From Actinotalea endophytica (GTDB lineage Bacteria; Actinomycetota; Actinomycetes; Actinomycetales; Cellulomonadaceae), in NCBI RefSeq assembly GCF_025717005.1, contig NZ_JAOVZU010000007.1, positions 186,001 through 250,000 of the forward strand: a DNA stretch of 64,000 nucleotides, read 5' to 3'. The number at the start of each line of letters is the position of its first letter. Position 1 is the first letter of the stretch. Under the pieces are notes generated by a model. The model worked only from the letters and a program-made list of their open reading frames with translations, did no database searches and had not been told where the DNA came from. The position numbers were made by a program, and so were the translations under genes. Shown here piece after piece: positions 27,715-30,175 of this stretch.

Positions 27715-29094
27715 TCACGGCGTGAGCCGATGGAGGTCGCGCGGGAACAGGGTGACCTCGCGGATGTTCGCCGCCCCGGTCAGCCGCGCGACCCAGCGTT
27801 CGAGCCCGATGGCGAAGCCCCCGTGCGGTGGCATTCCGTGCGCGAATGCCTGCAGGTACGCCGCGTACGCCGACGGCCGTTCACCGCGCGCGACGATCGC
27901 GGCCTCGTAGTCGCTCGGCCGGTGCAGACGCTGCCCGCCGGTGGCCAGCTCGAGCCCGCGGAACAGCAGGTCGAAGCTGTTCGACCAGGGCCCGCCGGGC
28001 ACCGGCTCGCCGGTCCAGCCGTGCGTGTAGAACGGTCGCTTCCGCATCGGGTAGCCCTCGACCACCAGCACGTCGCTGTCGAGCTCCTCCGACGCCCACG
28101 CGCCCAGGGCCCGTTCGTGCTCGGGCGCCAGGTCGGGCTCGTCGACGGGCGCCCCGACCCGTCGTAGCGCGTCGGCGAAGTGGATGGTCGGGACCTCGTC
28201 GGGGATCCGCGGCAGGGTCAGGTCGAGGCGCTCGACCGCCGGGCCGGCGTGCTGCCGGATCCCCTCGACCATCCCGGCCAGCACGTCGCGCAGCACCGCG
28301 ACCACGTCGCGATGGTCCCGGATGAAGCCCAGCTCGACGTCGAGCGAGACGTACTCGGCCAGGTGCCGGACCGTGTCGTGCGGCTCGGCACGGAACACCG
28401 GGCCGACCTCGTAGACCCGCTCGAAGACCCCGACCAGCTGTTGCTTGTAGAACTGCGGGCTCTGGGCGAGGTACGCGGGCCGGCCGAAGTAGTCCACCTC
28501 GAAGACGTTGGCGCCGGACTCGGTCGCCTGCTCGACCAGCTTCGGCGAGTGGATCTCGGTGAACCCCCGCGCCGTCAGCACGTCGCGGAAGCCGCGCAGG
28601 CTCGCGGCCGCGAGCTCCCAGGTCGCGCGCTGGGCGGGGTGCCGCCAGGTCACCGGCGCGTGGTCGAGCAGGGCGGGCAGCCCGGCGGTGAGGGACGGGC
28701 GCCAGAGCTCGACCGGCGGGGTCAGCGCGGGCTCGGTCAGCAGCACGACCCGTGGCTCGGTCACCTCGATCCCGCCGGGCGCCTGCGGGTTCGCCGTGGC
28801 GACGCCGGTCACCTCGATGGCGGTCTCCTCCGGGGGCAGGCCGTCGGGCGGCACGTCGCCGGGTCGCAGCACGACCTGCGCCAGTCCCGAGCGGTCGCGC
28901 ACGACGAGGAAGGTCACCGACGCGAGCTCGCGGCGTCGGTGCACGTGCCCCATCAGGGACACGGTGCTGCCGGGCTCCACGGCGGCGAGCTCGGCGGCGA
29001 GGGTGCGGGACGGCGCTGCGCTACCGACCGGTCCGCCGTCGAGTGCGGACACGGCAGCGCGGACAGGTGCGGCGGCAGGTACAGGTGGTCTCAT
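27715..29094 (-). CDS. aspS: Archaeal-type aspartyl-tRNA synthetase
   Basis: A 459-residue class II synthetase that charges tRNA-Asp, and in the non-discriminating form also tRNA-Asn. Residues 40-125 form the OB-fold anticodon domain. Motif 2 is FRAEPHDTVRH (234-244) and motif 3 GFAIGLER (426-433). The flanking AQSPQFYKQQL, GMPPHGG and the ending REVTLFPRDLHRLTP are the archaeal/eukaryotic pattern. The usual bacterial AspRS is about 590 residues with an inserted GAD domain, absent here. GGAGG lies four bases before the ATG and is buried in a leader hairpin, so translation is probably regulated. Confidence 0.88.
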   Translation of the reverse strand: MRPPVPAAAPVRAAVSALDGGPVGSAAPSRTLAAELAAVEPGSTVSLMGHVHRRRELASVTFLVVRDRSGLAQVVLRPGDVPPDGLPPEETAIEVTGVATANPQAPGGIEVTEPRVVLLTEPALTPPVELWRPSLTAGLPALLDHAPVTWRHPAQRATWELAAASLRGFRDVLTARGFTEIHSPKLVEQATESGANVFEVDYFGRPAYLAQSPQFYKQQLVGVFERVYEVGPVFRAEPHDTVRHLAEYVSLDVELGFIRDHRDVVAVLRDVLAGMVEGIRQHAGPAVERLDLTLPRIPDEVPTIHFADALRRVGAPVDEPDLAPEHERALGAWASEELDSDVLVVEGYPMRKRPFYTHGWTGEPVPGGPWSNSFDLLFRGLELATGGQRLHRPSDYEAAIVARGERPSAYAAYLQAFAHGMPPHGGFAIGLERWVARLTGAANIREVTLFPRDLHRLTP

Positions 29095-29098
29095 CGTT

Positions 29099-29268
29099 CC
29101 TCCAGGTGGCGGGAGCCCTGGAGGTGTGGGCGGGGGCCAGGTCGCTGTGCCACCACACCTTCGCCGGCGGTCTCGCCGGCCTCTCGTCGGTCCGCCGTCC
29201 GCGCGGGCGCCGCCTGCCCGGAGAAACCCGGGCCGAGGGTCGTCAGTCCTCGCGGCCGCCGGTCCGAC
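29099..29268 (-). promoter_or_regulatory. Probable translational T-box riboswitch in the aspS leader
   Basis: Read on the minus strand. Antisequestrator: AGGTGTGG (29160-29153), bulge TGGCACA (29152-29146), GCG (29145-29143), a 10-base loop, CGC (29132-29130), then CCACACCT (29129-29122). This is the canonical two-helix T-box fold; the usual bulge TGGNACC differs at one base. Alternative sequestrator: CCTCCAG (29124-29118) with CTGGAGG (29105-29099), which contains the GGAGG ribosome site. The folds share 29122-29124, so only one can form. TGGC would pair with a GCCA tRNA end, as on tRNA-Asp/Asn (G73). A stem III-like hairpin is at 29163-29180, and a 9-bp closing stem (29260-29268 with 29186-29194, one mismatch) encloses a stem I candidate containing GAC. 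Confidence 0.75.
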
Positions 29269-29314
29269 CGTACCTCGCACGCGGGCGCGGGCGCCTCGGC
29301 TGTCGCAAACCCCC

Positions 29315-30175
29315 GTGAGCGCGGACGATGAGGTCGTGGTCACCGGTGATCCGCACGGCGATGCGCCGTCGCTCCCGACCGACAAGGCAGCCAGGCTCCT
29401 GGCCCTGCACGCCGGTCCAGGTTTCGTGCTGCCGAACGCCTGGGACGCCGGGTCCGCCCGGATCCTCGAGCAGGTCGGCTTTCCCGCGGTCGCGACGACG
29501 AGCGCGGGCATCTCGTGGGCCCTCGGCGTCCCGGACGGGGAGTCGGTGGACCGCGACACCATGCTCGAGCACGTCGGTCGGATCGCATCCGCGGTCGACG
29601 TGCCGGTCACGGCAGACCTCGAGGCCGGCTACGGCGAGACCCCGGAGGACGTGGGCCGCACCGTGACGCTCGCCCTGGAGGTCGGGGCGGTGGGCGGGAA
29701 CCTGGAGGACGCCCGATCGGGCGGGCTGTACGGCGTCGACGAGGCGGTCGACCGGGTGCTCGCGGCCCGGGCCGCCGCGCCGCGCGGCACCTTCGTGCTG
29801 AACGCCCGCACCGACACCTACTTCGGCGGGTTGACCGGGGACCCGTTCGACGCGACGGTCGAGCGCGCGGCGAAGTACCTCGAGGCCGGCGCGGACTGCA
29901 TCTTCGTGCCGGGTGTCGTCGAGGCGGAGACGATCCGCCGGCTCGCCGAGGCGATCGGTGGCCCGTTCAACGTGGTCGCCGGACTCGCGAACACGATCGA
30001 CGTGCCCACCCTCTTCTCGTTGGGCGTCCGGCGGGTGAGCCTGGGCGGGAGCCTTGCGCGGGCCACGCTCGGTCTGCTCGAGCGTGCGGGGCGTGAGCTG
30101 CTCGACACCGGCACGCTCGGCTTCCTCGACGGCGCGATCGGGTACGGCGACCTGCAGCGGCACTTCGGCAAGTAG
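29315..30175 (+). CDS. Isocitrate lyase/PEP mutase family protein
   Basis: A 286-residue (beta/alpha)8 enzyme. PNAWDAGSARILEQVGFPAVATTSAGIS and VTADLEAGYGETPEDV are diagnostic of the PEP mutase/2-methylisocitrate lyase superfamily. NLEDARSGGLY and LNARTDTY complete the metal and substrate site. It lacks the KKCGH-type lyase loop of true isocitrate lyase, so it is better seen as a C-C or P-C bond enzyme of unknown substrate, perhaps an oxaloacetate-decarboxylase-like member. GTG 29315 was used. It diverges from the aspS leader. Confidence 0.85.
   Translation: MSADDEVVVTGDPHGDAPSLPTDKAARLLALHAGPGFVLPNAWDAGSARILEQVGFPAVATTSAGISWALGVPDGESVDRDTMLEHVGRIASAVDVPVTADLEAGYGETPEDVGRTVTLALEVGAVGGNLEDARSGGLYGVDEAVDRVLAARAAAPRGTFVLNARTDTYFGGLTGDPFDATVERAAKYLEAGADCIFVPGVVEAETIRRLAEAIGGPFNVVAGLANTIDVPTLFSLGVRRVSLGGSLARATLGLLERAGRELLDTGTLGFLDGAIGYGDLQRHFGK

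Follow-up and report, generated by a model that had tools for sequence, protein, structure and literature searches.

A minimal translational T-box predicted to read tRNA-Asp upstream of archaeal-type aspS genes in actinobacteria

A probable T-box leader in front of an archaeal-type aspartyl-tRNA synthetase gene

The window considered here, a stretch of 64,000 nucleotides (nt) from Actinotalea endophytica (contig NZ_JAOVZU010000007.1, positions 186,001 to 250,000), contains aspS, a gene for an archaeal-type aspartyl-tRNA synthetase (AspRS), and a whole leader element lies upstream of it at 29095-29272 of the minus strand. We propose, with a probability of about 0.88, that this leader is a translational T-box that would read tRNA-Asp with a Stem I of just 5 bp and with no recognizable S-turn Stem II. 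An initial annotation of the window had suggested a translational T-box at this site; the suggestion is now backed by comparative evidence, namely, covariation over 61 leaders, and the new part is apparently the architecture, i.e., the 5-bp Stem I without a recognizable S-turn Stem II. The outer helix A1, the TGGCACA bulge, the inner helix A2, and the hairpin hiding GGAGG all lie where that annotation had placed them on the minus strand, and its candidate codon-reading loop at 29239-29244 was in the right place, the specifier being GAC at 29244-29242 in the loop of the 5-bp hairpin. The parts of the leader and the gene are as follows.

29267..29272 (-): -10-like box TACGGT, with the predicted transcript start about 7 nt downstream of the box
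29234..29252 (-): ultrashort Stem I, a 5-bp hairpin with a 9-nt loop, 29252-29248 pairing with 29238-29234
29242..29244 (-): specifier GAC (Asp) inside the Stem I loop, followed by the purine G29241
29216..29233 (-): plain hairpin GCCCGGG-TTTC-TCCGGGC at the expected Stem II position, S-turn not seen
29185..29205 (-): Stem IIA/B-like conserved segment, with the hairpin 29201-29196/29189-29185
29205-29203 with 29195-29193 (-): possible pseudoknot within the Stem IIA/B-like segment
29181..29185 (-): purine string GAGAG (RRRxG), 5' of Stem III
29163..29180 (-): Stem III, 29180-29176 pairing with 29167-29163, followed by GAA at 29162-29160
29122..29160 (-): antisequestrator (A1, T-box bulge, and A2)
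29160-29153 / 29129-29122 (-): helix A1, AGGTGTGG/CCACACCT
29152-29146 (-): T-box bulge TGGCACA, 7 nt
29145-29143 / 29132-29130 (-): helix A2, GCG/CGC
29124-29117 / 29106-29099 (-): sequestrator hairpin CCTCCAGG/CCTGGAGG, which pairs the Shine-Dalgarno (SD) sequence
29103-29099 (-): SD sequence GGAGG, within the 3' arm of the sequestrator
27715..29094 (-), stop included: aspS, archaeal-type AspRS of 459 amino acids, start ATG at 29094-29092

Occurrence and covariation among relatives

Archaeal-type aspS loci were collected from a wider contig search (39 loci, 38 of them used) and from 27 other genomes of the family among 221 searched; with the own genome counted, there are 28 family genomes and 66 loci altogether, L069 (33% identity, partial) and L002-L030 (not archaeal-type aspS) having been left out beforehand. 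A leader scan, which required TGGNNCN between the arms of a 7-bp helix with at least 6 pairs, detects the element upstream of 63 of the 66 genes, and the covariance model R1 adds L064 (172 bits). The T-box leader is thus nearly universal for archaeal-type aspS (64/66 loci), and the earlier expectation that a T-box would be unusual on an AspRS of this type has to be given up. Two loci lack the element: L057, whose contig begins 237 nt before the match, and L066, whose gene is from another phylum and 41% identical. A class-wide survey of 394 genomes with a 20-mer pattern, which finds only leaders close to that pattern, returned 21 genomes versus 6 for the reversed pattern, with 18 placements before archaeal-type aspS, 2 before bacterial-type aspS (L156 and L157), and a chance match within a coding region (L162). 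Alignment A1, with rows chosen by the bulge only, holds 61 distinct leaders, exact copies (L072 and L075) and loci with no scan hit (L057, L064, and L066) being removed. Alignment A2 holds 56 short leaders, picked with a pattern containing TGAC(G/A); the 9 of the 61 that are not short and the short-type L052 and L055 are left out of it, and among seven class-survey leaders tried for it, L163 failed the filter.

The window alone is not proof of a switch, because neither its folding energy, which is ordinary (z of -0.92 over 241 nt and of -1.50 over 81 nt), nor the bare 12-mer GGTGGNACNGCG, with 55 copies in the genome versus 63 for the reversed control pattern, gives a signal. The same two observations speak for the view that these are chance hairpins in a leader of 77% G+C; however, the relatives tell against it. 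In the antisequestrator state (Stem I, Stem III, A1, and A2; 21 pairs), 96.8% of the cells are paired across the 61 leaders, a figure that falls to 38.5-45.8% when the partners are slid, and both sides change in 11 of the 21 pairs, with U-A turning to A-U in 19 sequences. The observed values were reached by 0 of 500 shuffles for four of the five measures and, for the fifth, the number of pair types, by 6 of 500. Of the 18 pairs of the sequestrator state, 12 change on both sides, with 92.5% of the cells paired (28.7-55.7% when slid); the sequestrator hairpin itself is 89.9% paired with such changes in 4 of its 8 pairs. Stem I shows them in 4 of 5 pairs at 93.5% pairing (alignment A2) and Stem III in 5 of 5 at 98-100%. 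Further, RNAalifold, given no structure, recovers Stem III, A1, the 7-nt bulge, and A2 from the alignment. The covariation of the competing stems on which the initial annotation had staked its proposal is thus present (11/21 antisequestrator and 12/18 sequestrator pairs). Together with the Rfam T-box matches of orthologous leaders described below, it refutes the chance-hairpin reading, for which we see practically no probability left, and the predicted T-box structure of the leader is proven by the covariation of its relatives.

The hallmarks of a T-box are found as well. A UGGN bulge stands between A1 and A2, with N matching the discriminator base of tRNA-Asp; in the bulge, UGG is kept in all 61 leaders and followed by C in 60 (L060 has U), and the fifth base is A in 60. 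Stem III is flanked by RRRxG and AA (here GAGAG and GAA), a T-box motif according to the cited section of a review (PMC7583486). Within alignment A2, AGAG (columns 90-93) is invariant in the 56 rows, with a G before it in 55. Stem I presents a specifier codon followed by a purine. Finally, the alternative hairpin covaries, its competition with A1 being partial in the model. The putative Stem IIA/B-like pairing of the conserved segment is weakly supported: its hairpin and pseudoknot have 98.2% and 96.7% of their cells paired, with a both-side change at a single pair, in 2 sequences.

Some leaders depart from this plan. The bulge is TGGTACC in L060 (2539-2773) of Actinospica, where a G discriminator would form a wobble pair; in L063 (2800-3020) of Nocardioides sp. 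B-3, it is TGGCGCC. In L070 (1315-1549; genome G159), which at 156 nt is the longest short-type leader, the segment comprising the purine string and Stem III (GGCGTACCGACGAGAGGCCGG) is tandemly duplicated.

Specificity for tRNA-Asp

The initial annotation had taken the TGGC of the bulge to fit both tRNA-Asp and tRNA-Asn. This stands as far as the discriminator is concerned, which is G in both own-genome tRNAs (tRNA-Asp with anticodon GTC and no encoded CCA; tRNA-Asn with anticodon GTT), and does not extend to tRNA-Asn as the predicted ligand, the specifier being GAC. The specifier columns of alignment A1, where the long leaders are poorly aligned, have G in 54, A in 60, and C in 59 of the 61 rows. 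Among 54 loops of hairpins selected by pairing and TANNNT distance only, 51 contain GAC, more than any other triplet. All 56 short leaders have TGAC, with G following it in 42 and A in 14, counts that are partly by construction, because the rows were selected with the TGAC(G/A) pattern; a purine after the specifier is among the T-box traits given in the cited section of PMC7583486. The combination of GAC and UGGC therefore fits tRNA-Asp, and the predicted ligand is best called tRNA-Asp rather than Asp or Asn.

One alternative is that the leader carries two specifiers and also reads tRNA-Asn. T-boxes reading two tRNAs have a precedent in a gatCAB-aspS2 operon, a case that our literature search did not return. 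In favor of a second specifier, tRNA-Asn likewise has discriminator G, and AAC stands after GAC in some leaders. However, the triplet after GAC varies (GAC, GAA, AAC, AAA, ATC, GCC, and others), which speaks against an Asn specifier, whereas GAC itself is kept and is followed by a purine, as expected behind a specifier; the identical GAC leader type also stands on bacterial-type aspS in two genomes. Since the second triplet is not conserved, we rejected the two-specifier reading as improbable.

A minimal architecture and its possible origin

In 52 of the 61 leaders, the specifier lies in the loop of a 5-bp hairpin, and the stretch from the start of Stem I to the end of A1 measures only 101-156 nt. 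Of these 52 short leaders, 50 have TANNNT at a distance of 19-22 nt upstream of Stem I (0/52 in the control window and 8.2% in shuffles), and transcription probably starts about 8-10 nt before the specifier hairpin; with the predicted start so near, there is no room for a longer Stem I. On the 3' side, the near-invariant segment (CCGCGCGUnCGGCG..ACCGACGAGAGG) follows Stem I at a median of 25 nt, and in 11 of the 56 leaders of alignment A2 at 10-13 nt. A plain hairpin of at least 4 bp is found at the place of Stem II in 45 of the 56 (54% in shuffles) and one of at least 6 bp in 23 (12% in shuffles), and 11 have no such hairpin. AGTA is absent from all 58 short leaders, which is a weak test because among the long leaders only L160 and L161 have AGTAGA. 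An S-turn Stem II does not appear recognizable in window-type leaders, where a cryptic substitute might exist, and in this respect the build departs from that of the ileS type.

In the cited part of a recent account, four classes of T-box are described, among them class III, with a short Stem I, a 5- to 6-nt loop, and a requirement for Stem II, and the glycine-specific class II, which has a long Stem I and no Stem II (PMC10482949). As predicted from its sequence, the window-type leader is outside all four. Against class III, the apical loop has 9 nt both in the window and in alignment A2 (columns 8-16), and the place of the S-turn Stem II holds either a spacer of 10-13 nt (11/56) or a plain hairpin (45/56). 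The long Stem I with kink-turn (K-turn), AGUA loop, and distal interdigitated double T-loop motif (IDTM) of class I are missing in the window type and are found in distant orthologous aspS leaders.

Nevertheless, the leader may belong to the ordinary short T-boxes of class III (ileS type) with a reduced Stem II, the hairpin 29233-29216 and the IIA/B-like segment doing the work of Stem II. A hairpin of at least 4 bp is, after all, present in most short leaders including the window, hairpins of 6 bp or more exceed the share in shuffles, and some leaders of the long type (L067, L062, and L170) already have a short plain Stem II, with 90 nt from specifier to bulge. We consider this the less probable view, given the 11 leaders with just 10-13 nt and no hairpin between Stem I and the IIA/B-like segment, the 9-nt specifier loop as opposed to the 5-6 nt stated for class III (PMC10482949), and, as a weak test, the missing AGTA. 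Instead, we lean, by a narrow preference, toward a fifth, Asp-specific T-box architecture of about 100-156 nt from Stem I to the end of A1, lacking an elbow-binding Stem I, an S-turn Stem II, and a K-turn, which would have been shed stepwise from class I through a stage with a long Stem I and no Stem II. As part of this proposal, the near-invariant segment, CCGCGCG(U)nCGGCG..ACCGACGAGAGG, would act as a new clamp supporting the codon-anticodon helix or the tRNA.

The distant orthologues keep the long form, hence the idea of a reductive series: a long Stem I, Stem II, and IIA/B are retained in L067, L058, L170, L175, and others, and a long Stem I in L050 and L159, whose RF00230 alignment omits the Stem II positions; L053 was grouped with the latter by eye only. 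The full class I form would be represented in Amycolatopsis and Nonomuraea and the intermediate stage, with a long Stem I and no Stem II, in Segeticoccus. We had first labeled the distant leaders class IV, a label that was dropped because the Rfam alignments show a long Stem I, AGUA, and distal-loop positions; they are predicted to be class I-like, with L050 and L159 having a long Stem I and no Stem II. A single change explains the distribution of Stem II on a tree of 73 AspRS proteins; it falls on a branch joining 59 rows with a Shimodaira-Hasegawa-like approximate likelihood ratio test (SH-aLRT) value of 100, although the Stem II labels were set by eye on a quick tree with a very long outgroup branch, and the count does not separate gain from loss. 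The tree excludes L063, L064, L159, and L171-L174 as unusable and L072, L075, L155, and L165 as copies. We infer loss because the long form is the widespread class.

Predicted switching and the evidence that weighs against it

In the proposed mechanism, the GUC anticodon of tRNA-Asp would pair with the GAC specifier, and the GCCA end of an uncharged tRNA would pair with UGGC of the bulge. The tRNA end would thereby hold A1 and A2 together and take CCU from the sequestrator, which would be weakened from 8 bp to 5 bp, allowing ribosomes to start on aspS; charged tRNA would be unable to hold the bulge, and the SD sequence would remain paired. The modeled energies are -14.6 kcal/mol for the full sequestrator and -13.0 for A1 plus A2. 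In minimum free energy (MFE) folds, at most 1 of the 5 SD nt is free in 57 of 60 leaders.

Several observations weigh against the T-box reading. The antisequestrator and the sequestrator overlap in only 3 nt (CCT, 29124-29122); the 5-bp remnant left after A1 takes CCU persists, at -6.8 kcal/mol; and with A1 forced, at least 3 of the 5 SD nt are free in only 7 of 60 leaders. In the bulge of the window, A replaces the last C. According to the cited section of PMC7583486, tRNA binding by a truncated Stem I is very poor when Stem II is missing. Finally, no Rfam T-box was found in the window at any reported E-value or, at gathering score, in any of 20 relatives, and RF00230 has no match in the own genome.

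As to the first group, forced A1 frees the SD sequence in few leaders and the remnant stays, so the modeled ON state is a weakened, not dissolved, sequestrator. The initial annotation had called the alternative hairpin exclusive; that it competes is upheld by its covariation, whereas exclusiveness holds only in part, given the 3-nt overlap. A related oddity is L051 (2750-2984), from an uncultured Nocardioides, in which the 5' arm of the sequestrator lies farther from the SD sequence by about 100 nt, so that its expression platform must differ.

The partial overlap and the final A of the bulge could also mean that the window copy is a decayed T-box that no longer switches, and G29199 facing A29187 in the IIA/B-like hairpin, at a position unpaired in 4 of 55 distinct rows, could be added to this. 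However, the last bulge base is C in 53 and A in 8 of the 61 leaders, the window among the 8, and the variant is found across several genera; what had been described as a mismatch is therefore a recurrent form. With the family model, in whose construction it was included, the window copy also reaches 167.2 bits, and all its antisequestrator helices are intact. We give decay little credence.

The outcome with the Rfam models is divided, the window copy having no match and orthologous leaders matching RF00230 below its gathering score. At a relaxed threshold, RF00230 matches all six of L160, L161, L164, L169, L170, and L175 (38.6-56.9 bits; E-values of 1.4e-5 to 2.7e-10) and 4 of 10 further leaders, L067, L159, L058, and L050 (35.5-65.3 bits; 2.9e-4 to 6.4e-12), with no match at that threshold for L053, L060, L061, L163, L055, and L052. 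These 10 of 16 loci all lie under the gathering score of 93, and every match spans model positions 1-219. The own-genome ileS leader (L139, about 1280-1600; contig C3, about 52865) resembles a short translational T-box, identified as such by eye, with TGGTACC, a 6-pair A1, a CCGGCC-ATC-ACCGG loop (also by eye), and AGTAGAAC; it has no match in Rfam and none to model R1. Because this ileS leader is missed too and orthologous aspS leaders do match, the miss of the window does not refute a T-box, and short actinobacterial T-boxes appear to lie outside RF00230.

The regulated enzyme and its genomic setting

The archaeal-type aspS is a solitary gene, flanked by a convergent NUDIX gene and by a divergent gene of the phosphoenolpyruvate (PEP)-mutase family whose plus-strand start is at 29315; the whole leader is contained in the 220-nt gap between the PEP-mutase-family gene and aspS. 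A relative of the protein at an E-value of 1e-70 was found in 0 of 18 other genomes of the genus, and the gene is therefore patchy. According to the cited part of one study, second archaeal-type AspRSs are rare in bacteria (PMC4206432). The protein contains Pfam domains PF00152 and PF01336 and is matched by NF003483, "aspartate--tRNA(Asn) ligase," at 496.8 bits, above the cut-off, and by TIGR00458 at 308 bits, below its cut-off of 368.4. Aligned by phmmer, H52 and P106 of the AspRS (P0001) correspond to H and P in AspRS2 of Thermus thermophilus (1n9w/3kfu), which bears a non-discriminating label in PDB, and to W and K in AspRS of Thermococcus kodakarensis (3nel); H52 is kept in 74 and P106 in 73 of 76 relatives. 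We take the equivalent positions to be those governing tRNA discrimination in AspRS. Agreeing with the former enzyme and not the latter, the AspRS of the window is probably non-discriminating. In Nocardioides gansuensis, a match to the Rfam ASdes small RNA (L031, 5633-5700; 80.8 bits, above gathering score) sits about 1.3 kb downstream of aspS.

A bacterial-type AspRS is present in all 32 genomes asked, i.e., 25 of the 27 other family genomes (without G123 and G186) and 7 from the class survey, 34 genomes with the element being eligible. At the 31 bacterial aspS loci of genomes with two AspRSs, no leader was found by R1, which would miss an ileS-type T-box, and a scan for a TGGNAC bulge with A1, which should not miss one, found none either, its three hits having other bulges. 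In G348 and G524, by contrast, the only AspRS seen, without a search by the archaeal-type protein itself, is of the bacterial type, and it carries the T-box (118.3 and 112.8 bits). Hence, where there are two AspRSs the switch sits on the second, and otherwise on the only one seen. The regulated enzyme is likely an inducible reserve, called upon when aspartate is short or when the housekeeping AspRS is inhibited or cannot keep up. Before the bacterial-type aspS in two genomes of another family (L156, 1427-1656, minus strand; L157, 1358-1606, plus strand), the same GAC T-box is joined to a different SD-pairing hairpin, in L156 by eye CTTTCGGGT/ACCCGAAAG, and the expression platform thus appears to have been exchanged.

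With these leaders, aspS would join ileS among the actinobacterial genes that carry translational T-boxes. As natural RNAs of one specificity running from the full form to a form of about 100 nt, they make the need for Stem II and the K-turn testable; indeed, the cited section of a 2020 review asks whether any T-box works without a K-turn (PMC7583486). They also show that Rfam misses short forms of the T-box, and an inducible reserve AspRS would answer AspRS inhibitors or aspartate shortage.

Comparison with known T-box systems

In the open-license literature, we found no aspS or Asp T-box in actinobacteria and no short T-box without Stem II, though TBDB, which scanned Actinobacteria with its own short-T-box model according to the cited part of PMC7778990, may hold such entries; the parts consulted of PMC10651847 and PMC2965389 are further sources. 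The nearest relatives are the ileS T-boxes, the only ones found in Actinobacteria in the cited part of PMC1262725. Those of class III (Nocardia farcinica type) likewise have a short Stem I with the specifier in the apical loop, and those of class III and class IV (Actinomyces odontolyticus type) share the bulge, Stem III, the antisequestrator opposing an SD sequestrator, and the synthetase gene. They differ in their AUC specifier, as against GAC before a different gene (PMC10482949 and PMC1262725, as cited), and, for class III, in a loop of 5-6 nt as against 9 nt with no recognizable S-turn Stem II. To class I (Bacillus subtilis tyrS type; RF00230), the link runs through the orthologues L067, L170, and L175, which match including the AGUA, AGAGA, and distal-loop positions, whereas the window type keeps only the specifier hairpin of Stem I and has lost the S-turn Stem II. 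Class II (glyQS) lacks Stem II as does the window type but, in the account cited, keeps a long Stem I; L050 and L159 align in a class II-like manner, with a long Stem I on RF00230 and the Stem II positions skipped. Finally, the aspS T-boxes of Firmicutes are likewise placed on one of several AspRS genes, e.g., one of three in Clostridium acetobutylicum; as far as the cited part of that study goes (PMC2494555), they act by antitermination in long leaders, whereas the aspS leader described here is predicted to be translational and is minimal.
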